DNA of 40,561 bases from an uncultured Prevotellaceae bacterium (GTDB lineage Bacteria; Bacteroidota; Bacteroidia; Bacteroidales; Muribaculaceae): positions 1-40,561 of the forward strand of contig CAMJZF010000009.1 in the NCBI GenBank assembly GCA_946410125.1, given 5' to 3'. Of this stretch, positions 34,953 through 39,980 are shown in pieces. The notes below the pieces were generated by a model, which was given only the letters and a program-made list of their open reading frames with translations, had not been told where the DNA came from and made no database searches. Within the stretch, counting starts at the first letter, position 1; every line of letters begins with the position of its first letter. The position numbers and the translations under genes were made by a program.

Positions 34953-37900
34953 TTATTTGACCAAGACTTTAGTTGTCATGCCGTCGGCAACTACAATGTA
35001 GATGCCTGGTGTGACATGAGTGATATCACCGTAACCTACTTGCACACCATTGAGATTGAATACTTTCACGTTGCTTGCTCCGGCAACATTGATGGTGCTC
35101 CCTTGGGTTGAAATCGACGGCTGATTGATGTTAACACTCTGAATCGCATCGGTGTCAAATTCCTCAATCTTGAAGAAATTCTTCCACAAGTAATGATTCA
35201 TATAGTCGTCCTTACTGCCGATGGGTACGAGCAGAGTGGCATGCTGCTCAACTTGATAGTCGAAAGTATAAACCGTGATTTCAGGCGGATTGACCGCAAA
35301 TGAGTAAATGGTGTCGAGTGAGGTGCAATTCTGGAATGCCCTTGATGGCACTTGAGTGACATTCTCGCCAATTGTAAGAGTCCTCACGTTTTTGTTACCA
35401 ATAAGAAAACCGGTATGGTAACTGTCATATTCGATATTTCGACCGATATAAACATTTTCAATACCTGTTGTGTAGAATACGTCATGACCCAACGACAGTG
35501 TGTTGTCGCTATCGTCGATAGTTAACGACTTTAAGGAACTGCACATCCTGAACGCATCGGTATCAATACTGTTGATACCGTCATGGATTTTAACTTTTGT
35601 AAGACCTTGACAATTATAGAAACTTCCATTTCCTATTTCTTGAAGGCTTTCGTTGAACTGGATGTCGGTCAACGATAAACAGCTATGGAAAGCTTTGTCT
35701 CCAATAGTGCGCAGGTTGTTGCTGAAAATGATATTGTTAAGCTCGACGCAATGGCTGAATGCTCCATATCCTATTTCGGTTACATTGTCGGGTATTACTA
35801 CTGCCGGCAGTTTGTCGCAACCACTGAAGCAGTCTTGTGGCAGGACGTTAAGGCTATTGCTTAACCTAACCGAAGACAAGGTGCTACAAATCGCAAAAGC
35901 AGCTTTACCTATCTCAACTACATTGTCGGGTATGAAAATTTCGGTTAGTGCTTCACATCCCATAAATGCGCATTCAGGAATTGCTGTCACTTTGTCGCCA
36001 ATAGTTACTGCCTCAATAGTTTTGAAATTGTAGAAAGCCGAATCGCCGAGACTGCGTCCCATATATAGGTTTTTGATAGGGCAAAGCTCAAAAGGAGAGT
36101 GAGAAACCGTGTGCCAATTCACATTCTCGGTGTAATACTTAAAGGGTAGGGGTTCATCGCCATCCTCAATAGCGAGATTATTTAGAGACGTACAGCCTTT
36201 GAATGTCAATTGGCCTATAGTTGGCACCGACGCTGGAATATTGATTGATTCTAAGCTGTTGCAGTCCAGGAATGCTCTCTCTCCAATGTAATCGACAGTT
36301 GAAGGTAGTGTGATGCCATGCAGCCTATGGCATCCCTCAAAAGCCATAGACCCAATGCTTCTCACAGCAGCAGGCATCTCAACTCTTGTAATAGAAGCAC
36401 ATTCATGAAAAGCATTAGAACTGATTGTGTCGATTGTGGTTGGTAAAATTATCTCAAGAATATTACTGCTCTTGTCTATAAAGTTACTGCCAATTTGGTC
36501 GTTTTTGGTAACAAAATTCTTGTAGTAAACATCTCCACCCTCCACTACATTGGCGTTCTTGATGTCGAGGAATCGCAGGTTTGGCATGTTCCTTATTGCC
36601 AAGACATCGGTTCCATTAATGTCACCTGAGAGTTTTAGGCAATAGATGTTGCCAAGATTCTCTTCACCAATAGAATCGAGTAAAGCTCCACTGTTACCGA
36701 GGGCAATGCGGGTGGCTTGGTAGCTATAGGTGTTGATTGAATTGTCGCGGTGCTTTGGCGAAGCGGTGAAAGTGTAACTACCCTCATGAACAATGTTGTT
36801 GGTAATGTCCTTGTTGTGTTTTGTTACAATGCCAAAGGTGAAGTCATTGATTTTGTCAACTACTACATTTTCATTCTCGGCAATGTCAAAGCCATCATTA
36901 TCAATTCCATTGACAGTTATGATCTTGTCACCTTCAACACTAATTGTTACAGGATACAATTTTATGCCATTGTCCATAGAGTAAATGGTATCGGTGGTAG
37001 CCCATTTCTCATCAGCGGCGTAGAGATGGGCACATCCGTTTGGAACCTCAACCGAGACGACATTGATGTCGCTTGCCGAAGATGGAGGGGTTGTGGCATG
37101 TGAAAAGATGCGCAGATTGGTGTCGCCTTTAAAGACGTTGGAGCCAAGGGTGTTGACATTTTCGCCAAGGGCCGCTTTTTGGAGTGACGTCATGTTTTGG
37201 AATGGAGAGTTGCCATTGTAGGTCACGTTTCGACCCATGTAAAGCTCTTGCAACGGACATCCTCCCAAAGGGTTGAAACGACCATTGTCTCTTATGGTTA
37301 TTGGCGTTTCGCCATCACCAATTGTAAAGGTTTTCAGATTGACGCATTCATAGAATGCCGCCTCATCAACAATTTGCACACTCGATGGAATGACAATGGA
37401 TTCAAGAGCTGTGCATTGTGAAAAGGCATTAGTGGGAATGTAACTCACGCCTTCCTCAATTGTCACACTTGTCAAGTTGCTACATCCTCTAAAGGCACTG
37501 CCTTCGAATGTGGTTATGCTGGCAGGAATTGTAATTTCATTCAATGCTGTGCAAGTCGAGAAGCAGTTGTTCTTAAGGGTATTTAATGTGGGTGGTAGTG
37601 TGACGCTCTCCAACTTGGAGCACAACAGGAACTCACCTGCAGGAATTGTTTTAACCCATGGCCCAATCGTGAGTGATTTTACTCCTGCTGCACGGAATGT
37701 GCCTCCCGTTGTGGAGCGTCCGTAATAGATGGTGTCGAGCGGACAATTGGTGAATGGGGAAACTCTATTGTTGTCGACCAATGCTGTCTCGAGGGTTGTG
37801 TGGGCATCATTGATGATTAGTTTGGACAACGAGGTACAATTAGCAAAAGCACACGACAAGATGGATGTCACGTTCTCAGGAATAATTAGTTCCTTGATTG

Positions 37901-38675
37901 AAGAGCAACCGGCAAAAGAATAATCTGAGATTTCTGAAACGCTTTCAGGAATCACAACGCTCTCGAGAGAACTGCACCCATAAAAGGCAAATAATGCGAT
38001 AGAAGTTATGCTCGGTGGTAAATTTATGGTTTTCAAACTTGAACAGTAGGAGAAAGCCGAGCTTTGAATTTTAGCAACATTCTCGCTCATGGTTACGTCG
38101 ATAAGCCCTGAACATTTGTTAGCCAGCCCGCTTGGAATTGAAGTTACATTGTTGCCAAGGGTAATGTGCTTTATGCTTCCCATATTATTAAAAGGGGAAT
38201 TGTTCTTATAATAGATGTAACGCCCAAGATATATGTCCTCAAGAGGACAACTTTCGAAAACAAGATTGTTATTTTGGAAGTTAAAGGTGAGGGTGGTTGC
38301 TGCGTCTTCTACTATCAGTTCGGTCAATGAATTGCAATGGGCAAAGGCACTCTGGTTAATGCTGGTAATGCTGGCAGGAATTGTAAGCCGTGTCAATGAT
38401 GTGCAATCGTGGAATGCCGAATCGCCAACGGCAGTGACAGAATAAGGCACACCATTGTTATTGACCGTTTCGGGCAATCTAAAATTGGTAATGCCACTAT
38501 AATTGCCATCGGCATCTTTAGATAGATATGTGATGGTGACACTTGTGCCGTCGCCGTTGATATTATAGGCAAGGCCGTCGCTCATGAAGTCGAAAGCTGT
38601 TGCATTCATTGTTGCCGACAAGAGTAGTGCAAGCAGCAAAGCTCGGGGCTTGATTGTGTGGAATGTAGTTTTCAT
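34953..38675 (-). CDS. BspA-like LRR surface protein with T9SS sorting tail
   Basis: 1240 residues from the ATG at 38675 (the 14 residues before it in the open frame have no ATG and are rejected). Signal peptide about residues 1-28. Two blocks of about 23-residue BspA-type LRRs (bases about 37110-38480 and 35270-36480) flank a non-repeat region of about 200 residues (36480-37110) that may be an Ig-like domain. The end, NVKVFNLNGVQVGYG...PGIYIVVADGMTTKVLVK, is a clear type A T9SS C-terminal sorting domain. It should leave the cell through the machinery encoded at the left of the window. Ligands are unknown; BspA relatives bind fibronectin or fibrinogen or help coaggregation. It is of the same family as the truncated gene at 1-1331. 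Confidence 0.92.
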   Translation of the reverse strand: MKTTFHTIKPRALLLALLLSATMNATAFDFMSDGLAYNINGDGTSVTITYLSKDADGNYSGITNFRLPETVNNNGVPYSVTAVGDSAFHDCTSLTRLTIPASITSINQSAFAHCNSLTELIVEDAATTLTFNFQNNNLVFESCPLEDIYLGRYIYYKNNSPFNNMGSIKHITLGNNVTSIPSGLANKCSGLIDVTMSENVAKIQSSAFSYCSSLKTINLPPSITSIALFAFYGCSSLESVVIPESVSEISDYSFAGCSSIKELIIPENVTSILSCAFANCTSLSKLIINDAHTTLETALVDNNRVSPFTNCPLDTIYYGRSTTGGTFRAAGVKSLTIGPWVKTIPAGEFLLCSKLESVTLPPTLNTLKNNCFSTCTALNEITIPASITTFEGSAFRGCSNLTSVTIEEGVSYIPTNAFSQCTALESIVIPSSVQIVDEAAFYECVNLKTFTIGDGETPITIRDNGRFNPLGGCPLQELYMGRNVTYNGNSPFQNMTSLQKAALGENVNTLGSNVFKGDTNLRIFSHATTPPSSASDINVVSVEVPNGCAHLYAADEKWATTDTIYSMDNGIKLYPVTISVEGDKIITVNGIDNDGFDIAENENVVVDKINDFTFGIVTKHNKDITNNIVHEGSYTFTASPKHRDNSINTYSYQATRIALGNSGALLDSIGEENLGNIYCLKLSGDINGTDVLAIRNMPNLRFLDIKNANVVEGGDVYYKNFVTKNDQIGSNFIDKSSNILEIILPTTIDTISSNAFHECASITRVEMPAAVRSIGSMAFEGCHRLHGITLPSTVDYIGERAFLDCNSLESINIPASVPTIGQLTFKGCTSLNNLAIEDGDEPLPFKYYTENVNWHTVSHSPFELCPIKNLYMGRSLGDSAFYNFKTIEAVTIGDKVTAIPECAFMGCEALTEIFIPDNVVEIGKAAFAICSTLSSVRLSNSLNVLPQDCFSGCDKLPAVVIPDNVTEIGYGAFSHCVELNNIIFSNNLRTIGDKAFHSCLSLTDIQFNESLQEIGNGSFYNCQGLTKVKIHDGINSIDTDAFRMCSSLKSLTIDDSDNTLSLGHDVFYTTGIENVYIGRNIEYDSYHTGFLIGNKNVRTLTIGENVTQVPSRAFQNCTSLDTIYSFAVNPPEITVYTFDYQVEQHATLLVPIGSKDDYMNHYLWKNFFKIEEFDTDAIQSVNINQPSISTQGSTINVAGASNVKVFNLNGVQVGYGDITHVTPGIYIVVADGMTTKVLVK

Positions 38676-38822
38676 AAATATGTCATTTTTAGAGTTGGCT
38701 TGTATTTTGGTCGCCACTAAATTACTGATAGTTTTTGGTAATTACAAAGTTTTCATGCCCTTTTTTAAAATCTTGGTCAAGATTGAAACTCTGAGACCTT
38801 GGTGGGGACGTTTTCGCCACCT

Positions 38823-39464
38823 TTATTTATTTGGCTTGGCTATTCCAAAGGTGATGAAGTCCTCGGTGTCCGAGAGTTTTTCGGTCGACGCGTTAAGCAA
38901 TCTAATTATAAATTGTTTGCCAAATTTTTTCATTTCGCCGCTATTATTGTCGCGAAGCTTGCTGAGTTCCTGCGCCGGGATTTTAATGAGGTAGGAGTGC
39001 TCGCCATATTTGTCGGCAGTGAAGTTGACATATCCCTGGTCGGCCGATACGGTTCCTTTGAAAGCTGTGAGCTTGGCGGTGTTATATATTCGCCTCTTCT
39101 TTTGGATTTCAAGCGGAATGATTTGGAATAATCGCTTTGGACTACGTTTGTTGTCTTCCCAAGCAATGATAATATACAAGTCATTTTCATAGGCCGATGC
39201 GTCGAGCGTGACTGGCGATGCTGGACCTTCAATCTGATAGTACTGGCTCCCCTTGGCAATACCCAGCAACGCTAAGCCGGCATTGGCTGTGGTGCGAAGT
39301 TTGGAATGTTCAATCTCAAGCGGAATGCCTTCGGTTGCGCTGGTTACTAAAATTGCCTCTTGTTCAAATTCGGGTTCGGGAACGCTGATTGAGGCTTGGT
39401 CGATTTGTGCGCTTGCTGTGAGAGAAGCAAGGAATAAGAGCCCAGAAATGAGAATCTGTTTCAT
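38823..39464 (-). CDS. Secreted protein of unknown function
   Basis: 213 residues from the ATG at 39464 (an upstream in-frame ATG at 39488 would only lengthen the region before the signal peptide). The signal peptide is about residues 1-20, ending TASAQ. The rest reads as beta-rich, with long alternating strands (LYIIIAWEDNKRSPKRLFQIIPLEIQ, HSYLIKIPAQEL). I recognise no family. There is no lipobox and no sorting tail. It lies between the RNA candidate's terminator (58 bases upstream) and the BspA-like gene, on the same strand as both. The 147-base gap 38676-38822 contains a small perfect palindrome AATCTTG-GT-CAAGATT near 38770 but no clear terminator. Confidence 0.65.
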   Translation of the reverse strand: MKQILISGLLFLASLTASAQIDQASISVPEPEFEQEAILVTSATEGIPLEIEHSKLRTTANAGLALLGIAKGSQYYQIEGPASPVTLDASAYENDLYIIIAWEDNKRSPKRLFQIIPLEIQKKRRIYNTAKLTAFKGTVSADQGYVNFTADKYGEHSYLIKIPAQELSKLRDNNSGEMKKFGKQFIIRLLNASTEKLSDTEDFITFGIAKPNK

Positions 39465-39522
39465 GTTGTGAGAATAATTCAAAGCCATTTTAGATTCCTC
39501 GGAGTAAAGGCTGTTAGTAAAT

Positions 39523-39616
39523 AAAAAAGACGTGGGAATCTGTACTTTAGCTTACCCCGTCTTCAGGCCTTCGCATTGCCCCTCTATCAGGATAAGCAAC
39601 GCAGTTAGCCCACGTC
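39523..39616 (-). terminator. Terminal stem and T run of the RNA candidate
   Basis: On the minus strand an 8-bp stem CCCACGTC (39529-39536) pairing with GACGTGGG (39609-39616) is followed by TTTTTT (39523-39528). The large enclosed loop is itself structured, so this is part of the RNA fold as well as a likely 3' end. Confidence 0.65.
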
Positions 39617-39866
39617 AATGTGAAGATATAAATGCCACATATTGCCTCAAAACAGATAACATGTAGACAAAATATTCACTCAACGTGGACGCTCACTTCG
39701 TTGCCGTTTCTTCCGATAGAGTTTCAAAGTTGCGAAGTTTGAAGACCGAAGATAACGCCGTTAGTAAACGTCCGTTTATTAAAATGTTAAGACGCATAGC
39801 TTGAGCATCAATTAATGCTTTTTGTCTGCATCTTGACCCGCCGCCCTCTCTTGAGCTAACCGAGTC
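39523..39866 (-). ncRNA. Candidate structured non-coding RNA, about 340 nt
   Basis: This minus-strand segment starts just after a perfect promoter (39872-39903) and ends at a hairpin plus T run. No convincing gene lies within; the only open frame is 69 codons without recognisable features. Pairings seen: a terminal domain closed by GACGTGGG/CCCACGTC (39609-39616 with 39529-39536), inside it GCTTATCC/GGGTAAGC (39590-39597 with 39550-39557). A long-range 8-bp pair joins the 5' end to this domain (CGGTTAGC at 39855-39862 with GCTAACTG at 39602-39609). AAGATGC/GCGTCTT pairs lie in the 5' third. It does not show the RNase P, tmRNA or SRP RNA signatures. The terminal domain, a stem with an internal bubble and T run, is 6S-like in shape only. 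Confidence 0.6.
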
Positions 39867-39871
39867 GATTG

Positions 39872-39903
39872 CAAAAATAAGAAAAATTTTGTGAAATGCC
39901 AAA
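39872..39903 (-). promoter_or_regulatory. Promoter of the RNA candidate
   Basis: On the minus strand TTTG (39900-39903), exactly 20 bases, TATTTTTG (39872-39879): a perfect Bacteroidetes promoter. It is divergent from the dus promoter 45 bases away. Confidence 0.8.
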
Positions 39904-39947: not shown

Positions 39948-39980
39948 TTTGTGAATGTCCCAAAAAAAGAATTATCTTTG
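39948..39980 (+). promoter_or_regulatory. Promoter of dus
   Basis: TTTG (39948-39951), 21 bases, TATCTTTG (39973-39980). The ATG is only 10 bases further on, so the mRNA should have a very short or no leader. Confidence 0.8.

Follow-up and report, generated by a model that had tools for sequence, protein, structure and literature searches.

A multi-copy structured RNA of Bacteroidales, absent from Rfam, as a probable transcription-attenuation leader

The locus and its structured RNA

The sequence analyzed here, referred to as the window, is a stretch of 40,561 nucleotides from an uncultured Prevotellaceae bacterium; the features discussed below are collected in Table 1. A gene-free stretch, already pointed out in an earlier note on this DNA, separates the minus-strand gene of a secreted protein from dus, which carries a Pfam Dus match. 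A minus-strand promoter of the form TTTG-N20-TATTTTTG lies in this stretch and diverges from the dus promoter (TATCTTTG at 39973, plus strand). It is followed after about 345 nt, with no gene inside, by CCCACGTC and a run of T, so that both the promoter and the terminator recognized in the earlier note are in place. A pattern scan of the minus strand between 38600 and 39990 found a single instance of TAnnTTTG, the TATTTTTG of the leader itself. The secreted-protein gene would therefore need read-through, and perhaps so would the gene of a BspA-type leucine-rich-repeat surface protein that comes behind it on the same strand and is possibly cotranscribed with it. The product of the first gene had no match in a Pfam scan, and its N terminus, judged by eye, makes it likely to be exported.

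The minus strand between promoter and terminator folds with −120.7 kcal/mol compared with −88.6 kcal/mol for shuffled sequences (z = −6.3), and none of 100 shuffles equals it, which bears out the proposal of a structured RNA. The complement on the plus strand likewise folds well (z = −4.75), and the strand is therefore decided by the promoter, the terminator and the relatives rather than by folding energy. From 5' to 3', the elements of the RNA are K, A, the 5' strand of P2, H, E, F, the 3' strand of P2, G, B, a tip hairpin, C, G', the 5' strand of P3, F', E', H'', the 3' strand of P3, D and the U run.

Table 1. Coordinates of the leader and its neighbors in the window. The pairings are predicted.
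Feature	Position	Strand	Remarks
BspA-type leucine-rich-repeat surface protein gene	34953-38717	minus	1254 codons; Pfam LRR_5
Secreted-protein gene (led gene)	38823-39488	minus	up to 221 aa; likely start 39464
Post-terminator hairpin	39484..39511	minus	GGAATCT complementary to AGATTCC in the terminator domain
Strand D and U run, intrinsic terminator 3' arm and tail	39519..39536	minus	
Terminator end, CCCACGTC then TTTTTT	39536-39523	minus	
Switch 3' half	39550..39604	minus	G' 39604-39596, P3 5' strand 39597-39590, F' 39588-39582, E' 39575-39569, H'' 39565-39559, P3 3' strand 39558-39550
Strand C, terminator stem 5' arm	39608..39616	minus	B or K can hold C instead
Strand B	39683..39696	minus	partner A (local state) or C (rod state)
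Switch 5' half	39699..39758	minus	P2 5' strand 39758-39748, H 39746-39740, E 39737-39731, F 39721-39715, P2 3' strand 39714-39703, G 39705-39699
Strand A	39764..39773	minus	partner B (local state) or D and U run (rod state)
5' domain, local hairpin P0	39835..39866	minus	from the fold of the window copy
Strand K, GGTTAGCTC	39861-39853	minus	alternative partner GGGCTAACT, 39611-39603 (C/G' region)
Promoter TTTG-N20-TATTTTTG	39872..39903	minus	TATTTTTG at 39879-39872; TTTG at 39903-39900, about 20 bases earlier
dus	start ~39991	plus	Pfam Dus match

Searches against known RNA families

No Rfam 15 model matches anywhere in the window at the gathering cut-off, in keeping with the earlier description of the RNA as unassigned. 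When E values up to 10 are admitted around the element, seven implausible matches appear, none of them to 6S, 6S-Flavo or Bacteroidales-1; the best ones at the element, SCARNA24 (E 0.28) and GAIT (E 0.23), were dismissed as chance. Rfam searches of 18 further loci at the gathering cut-off yielded tRNA and TPP only, both outside the element, and a search of 20 loci at E up to 1 yielded one tRNA, again outside the element. Neither ARAGORN nor Rfam finds a tRNA or tmRNA at the element, which agrees with the earlier statement that tmRNA signatures are absent; for RNase P and SRP RNA the corresponding statement is upheld by the lack of an Rfam match. Searches of open-access PMC text brought up no description of the family apart from one possible fragment, HMP2_1881 (see below), and we call it novel as far as those searches and Rfam go.

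Copies and distribution of the family

Comparison of sequences and predicted structures indicates that the segment at about 39866-39523 (minus strand) is one copy of a strongly conserved, multi-copy RNA family of Bacteroidales. For the terminator domain, we built a covariance model, R1, from 44 sequences; it covers 99 positions. It matches 94 of the 99 genomes of the window's taxonomic family at E up to 1e-5, with a median of 4 and a maximum of 19 copies per genome and a total of 517, so that the expectation of conservation in related genomes is confirmed. In the order, at least 81 of 295 genomes, counting the source genome, have a match at E up to 0.001; this is a lower bound owing to strict filters and a limit set on the number of candidates. 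Among 198 genomes drawn from the phylum, the own genome alone matches at E up to 1e-5; the 20 other genomes listed from this sample belong to the same class and none is marked as the same order. In the window itself R1 has one strong match of 92 bits, and its weak matches, one on the complementary strand of that site (E 0.0022) and two more (E 0.055 and 0.16), are taken as chance. When weak matches are counted as well, the copy numbers at E up to 0.001 are 11 in Paraprevotella clara, 9 in Bacteroides caecigallinarum, 4 in B. bouchesdurhonensis, 3 in Xylanibacter rarus, and 2 each in Phocaeicola oris and Hallella mizrahii.

Similarity at the DNA level reaches 13 of 61 genomes (E up to 0.001, own genome included), in two of which, G030 and G033, it covers the bases adjoining dus and excludes the RNA. 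The source genome holds two further partial copies. One of them, L002, is cut by a contig end; the other, L003 (G000:C133:705-888), is degenerate, keeping the 5' half and lacking the 3' half with the terminator domain. Elsewhere, the copy L015 (G028:C157) is degenerate, interrupted and rearranged, and like L003 it has no R1 match.

A degenerate pattern of the terminator domain retrieved at least 119 stretches from genomes sampled one per species and 6 from viral contigs. By a T-run rule and inspection by eye, 106 of the genome stretches and one of the six viral ones (L031) were judged to be members; the non-members are 11 stretches without the element, one that breaks off (L075) and one cut by a contig end (L137). 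Ten loci from the window's relatives bring the members to 117, of which 111 were aligned, the other six (L037, L040, L064, L096, L100 and L116) being left out for a cut or irregular 5' side. Among the titles listed, members occur in Bacteroides, Phocaeicola, Parabacteroides, Prevotella, Paraprevotella, Alistipes, Paludibacteraceae and Muribaculaceae. Two members among the 80 titles listed (L047 and L076) are on metagenome-assembled contigs titled Clostridia and are perhaps misbinned. Copies are also found on two Phocaeicola plasmids and one Bacteroides finegoldii plasmid, and a match in a 4.3-kb phage record spans 72% of the query. Several AT-rich stretches among 12 more inspected by eye follow the same plan with very different letters.

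Position of the element relative to promoters and genes

The promoter box of the window copy recurs in nearly all copies of the family. TAnnTTTG occurs upstream of 104 of 107 copies compared with 168 of 1920 random windows of the same length, and 71 of these 104 have a TTG or TTTG box at 17–22 nt. In the 110 nt behind the terminator, the same pattern is found in none of 110 copies compared with 100 of 1920 random windows. A same-strand open reading frame of at least 60 codons starts within 150 nt behind the element in 86 of the 105 aligned copies that have at least 300 nt of sequence there, compared with 382 of 930 random positions; the median distance is 67.5 nt, with quartiles of 56 and 78.5 nt. 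Nine members have their start codon immediately after the U run or within its last bases, 5–7 nt from the first U; six of these nine are among the 19 copies missed by the rule above, which leaves 13 of 105 without a near reading frame. Annotated coding sequences on the plasmids start 68 and 84 nt behind the match. With a same-strand reading frame behind it and no TAnnTTTG in between, the element is best read as the 5' leader of an mRNA.

The led genes differ widely. When a rough signal-peptide rule is applied, 54 of the 86 led proteins look exported, compared with 193 of 524 mechanically called background reading frames. A Pfam search of 71 of the 86 near proteins returned 75 families, among which leucine-rich-repeat and Ig-like domains are the most frequent and none is common; among the best 25 of the 75, LRR_8 was found in 5 proteins, LRR_5 in 4 and Big_2 in 4. 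GtrA and DegT domains also occur. We considered naming a signal from the led genes and rejected the attempt, as their functions point to no metabolite or shared signal.

Some loci deserve separate mention. The viral-collection contig IMGVR_UViG_3300021319_000137 (85.7 kb; L031) contains, within 390-2381, a full leader copy and behind it a gene with elongation-factor-Tu domains (Pfam GTP_EFTU), which begins 16 nt after the start of the U run. In rumen and gut Prevotella-like genomes (L011, L058, L064, L065, L102, L110, L111, L143 and L149), what follows the leader is often a gene for a short peptide whose N terminus is of a conserved SRREFFKRAAKG type; at several of these loci the next reading frame contains a CxxxCxxC motif, which we take to be radical-SAM-like. 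Five loci of Alistipes/Rikenellaceae type (L070, L073, L084, L121 and L129) have a short led protein whose start codon coincides with the end of the U run; that of L121 has a weak DprA match (DNA_processg_A, E 7.8e-5, under the Pfam cut-off).

A further conserved segment lies between the terminator and the led gene. In many relatives it presents GGGGAGTCT in a hairpin loop, complementary to AGACTCCC in the terminator domain, and this pairing gives z = −7.3 for 53 members in the swap test described below. GGGA or GGGG occurs within 70 nt behind the terminator in 73 of 111 copies compared with 424 of 1920 random windows. The segment would be transcribed too late to influence termination and may serve the read-through mRNA.

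Two predicted, mutually exclusive sets of pairings

Base pairing predicted from the sequences falls into two sets. The local set consists of A.B, P2, P3 and the terminator stem C.D; the rod set consists of A.D, H.H'', E.E', F.F', G.G' and B.C. Strands H, E and F lie inside P2 and their partners inside P3; on geometric grounds, the full local set and the full rod should therefore exclude each other. In the rod, both strands of the terminator stem can find other partners. We also considered a docked form that would combine closed P2 and P3 with paired E.E' and F.F', and judged it sterically hard.

The pairings were assessed by an alignment-free swap test, which compares the duplex of a copy's own strands with duplexes formed with the strands of other copies, using 53 of the 111 members at less than 75% identity. 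In the rod set, the z values are −27.5 for H.H'', −25.8 for F.F', −13.5 for E.E', −5.7 for G.G', −4.6 for A.D and −1.0 for B.C, the last being uninformative because B.C hardly varies. In the local set they are −10.7 for P2, −8.0 for P3, −6.4 for A.B and −4.8 for C.D. Six control pairings gave −3.8, −3.8, −0.6, −0.4, +2.3 and +2.9; the two at −3.8 are the 5' strand of P2 with the 3' strand of P3, which are opposite each other in the rod, and H with F. Since controls reach −3.8 twice, A.D, C.D, G.G' and A.B stand only moderately above the background. By this comparison of sequences, helices H, F, E, P2 and P3 are firmly supported, and G.G', A.B, C.D and A.D moderately so.

The strand K near the 5' end offers another way to hold C. 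For K.K', examined in 50 of the 101 copies that have a usable promoter box, the native duplex has −12.9 kcal/mol compared with −10.8 kcal/mol after swapping (z = −7.4, n = 50), and it reaches −8 kcal/mol or lower in 37 of the 50 relatives. The 8-bp long-range helix that the earlier note had drawn from the 5' end to the terminal domain is most likely this pairing of GGTTAGCTC with GGGCTAACT, an assignment made here.

Covariation is also seen in alignments of relatives. For the rod without A.D, alignment A3 (52 sequences) has paired letters in 83.9% of cells compared with 72.8% after shuffling and 33–47% in slid registers, and both sides have changed at 24 of 37 pairs; the F helix is paired in just 61% of cells, in a region that aligns poorly. 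In alignment A4 (44 sequences kept from 54 prepared), the terminator domain is paired in 99.0% of cells compared with 95.3% after shuffling and 40–55% in slid registers. The C.D stem is paired in 99.4% of cells in these 44 sequences and is followed by a T run, the latter partly by selection, as it was required for family membership in most cases. Many conserved letters in the alignment of relatives are left unexplained by pairing.

The same matching is found among paralogues of one genome, where the H and F strands differ from copy to copy and each is matched to its own partner. The native partner is strictly the best for H in 14 and for F in 12 of the 15 copies compared (16 were parsed out of 32 fetched). 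The minimum-energy fold has at least 15 pairs between the two halves, that is, the rod, in 49 of 52 sequences, and its median energy is 13.4 kcal/mol below that of the summed local folds (52 sequences). With the rod computed as the more stable form, the outcome in the cell should depend on speed and helpers.

Proposed mechanism and alternative explanations

In the sequences of relatives the element lies between a promoter and a same-strand reading frame, an intrinsic terminator precedes the reading frame, and a conserved alternative pairing, strongly supported for H, E and F and moderately for A.D and G.G', would exclude that terminator. These features lead us to consider it likely that this RNA family, absent from Rfam, consists of cis-acting leaders that work by transcription attenuation. 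We infer that both sets of pairings form in the cell, that the choice between them is regulated with the rod as the ON state, and that the signal, possibly a ligand, a protein, an RNA acting in trans or the speed of the polymerase, acts on strand exchange. Several observations weigh against this reading: the controls of the swap test come close to the moderately supported helices and B.C shows no signal there, the F helix is poorly paired in alignment A3, 13 of 105 copies lack a near reading frame, the led genes have no function in common that would name a signal, and the conserved segment behind the terminator arises too late to act on termination.

A possible course of events is as follows. 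RNA polymerase would start at the TAnnTTTG promoter and produce the leader of about 345 nt, whose 5' half, made first, would fold first into the local hairpins P0, A.B and P2. The emerging strand C would then be free either to join B or K or to stay unpaired until D is made. Pairing of C with D would form the intrinsic terminator, and a short RNA would end at the U run. Alternatively, the 3' half could zip into the 5' half in the order in which it is made, that is, G.G', F.F', E.E' and H.H''. In the resulting rod, C would be bound to B or K, and D to A, the terminator would be blocked, and the secreted-protein gene would be transcribed.

The first alternative is a free-standing regulatory RNA. 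Here the product itself would be the terminated rod, about 345 nt long, with a role in trans or as a binding site for a protein; C.D would do no more than stop its synthesis, and the downstream gene would be incidental or reached by leak-through. The element's own promoter and strong terminator, the rod as the lowest-energy fold in most sequences, and the 13 copies without a reading frame of 60 codons close behind are all in line with such an RNA. It is nevertheless difficult to reconcile with the tight spacing of the same-strand reading frame, the nine start codons at the U run, the lack of TAnnTTTG behind the terminator, the conserved hairpin between terminator and reading frame, and the different genes behind different copies, and we regard it as unlikely. 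The earlier picture of an unassigned structured RNA holds for the promoter, the terminator, the conservation, the covariation and the lack of an Rfam 15 match, but the RNA is better read as a leader than as free-standing, and it is larger than described.

Processive antitermination and factor loading are known from put RNA, EAR RNA and NusG paralogues of the UpxY kind. If the element belonged to this class, the rod would stay with RNA polymerase or recruit a factor, and later terminators would be passed as well. A large, conserved, promoter-proximal RNA before genes of surface or polysaccharide type (those with GtrA and DegT domains) would suit this role, as would the many conserved letters beyond pairing. 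Such RNAs have no need of a terminator of their own, many of the led genes are single short reading frames, and the Rfam models of epsC/EAR and JUMPstart do not match; this explanation appears somewhat less probable still than a free-standing RNA.

It could also be argued that the element is a dispersed repeat spread by mobile elements, structured and without a present regulatory role, given the many copies per genome, several of them at contig ends and some truncated or rearranged (L003, L015), and its occurrence on plasmids and a viral contig. A repeat of this kind would hardly keep its hypervariable strands matched copy by copy, even among paralogues, or its position relative to reading frames, and we consider it very improbable. 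A Bacteroidales 6S-type RNA, suggested in the earlier note by the general shape of the terminal domain, is barely credible given the absence of 6S and 6S-Flavo matches (E up to 10) around the element and of any Rfam match within it at the further loci, and the presence of as many as 19 copies in one genome, with different genes behind them; the 6S-like domain is the terminator half of the two-state structure.

Returning to the attenuation leader, a broader reading would have the whole leader act as an order-wide, multi-copy strand-exchange switch, in which the hypervariable matched strands are an address code for each copy against cross-pairing with its siblings, and a single signal governs, one copy at a time, a large regulon made up of surface and accessory genes. 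We offer this extension tentatively and think it rather more apt to fail than to hold.

The element stands before many surface-protein and other genes of gut Bacteroidales and probably switches their transcription. A family with no Rfam entry, present in nearly all sampled genomes of the window's taxonomic family and in up to 19 copies each, would count as a common type of leader in these gut bacteria. It would offer a handle on how their surface proteins are controlled, and its copy-specific matched strands constitute a natural experiment in cotranscriptional strand exchange.

Comparison with known systems

In the Bacteroides thetaiotaomicron transcriptome, 13.5% of mRNAs are reported to have a 5' UTR longer than 100 nt and about 2% of these long 5' UTRs are predicted to bear a riboswitch (PMC7366714). 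Structured RNAs of Bacteroidetes already in Rfam include 6S-Flavo (RF01685), Bacteroidales-1 (RF01693) and Bacteroides-1 (RF01694), to go by the part of the source consulted (PMC2864571); none of the three matches the element. The FopS/GibS small RNAs of Bacteroides, in the portion of their description used here (PMC11697453), resemble the element in being multi-copy in Bacteroidales with a promoter and a Rho-independent terminator. Unlike the element, which is about 345 nt long and lies before reading frames, the FopS RNAs are described there as about 65–70 nt long and trans-acting, built of one hairpin preceded by a single-stranded seed (PMC11697453).

HMP2_1881 is an uncharacterized 108-bp candidate from a human-microbiome screen that was expressed in 13 of 13 finds (PMC8040213). 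It occurs mostly in Bacteroidetes and near radical SAM genes, and its length is about that of the terminator domain; in the passages considered here it is described without a two-state or leader reading (PMC8040213). In view of the radical-SAM-like reading frames near some copies, HMP2_1881, compared by its description only, may be a fragment of this family.

The nearest mechanistic relatives are riboswitches and attenuators of transcription whose terminator and antiterminator exclude each other, such as the purine-sensing yxjA riboswitch (PMC9756952). They share with the element the position in a 5' leader, an intrinsic terminator stem, an alternative pairing that takes the strands of the terminator, and cotranscriptional strand exchange, which for the element is a proposal of the present work. 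The element differs from them in being without a known aptamer, in an alternative fold that is a whole-length rod of several long-range helices, in having some helices that are hypervariable yet matched in each copy, and in the diversity of the led genes. An attenuator leader as a kind is known, and what is new, as far as tested, is the family and its copy-specific matched strands.
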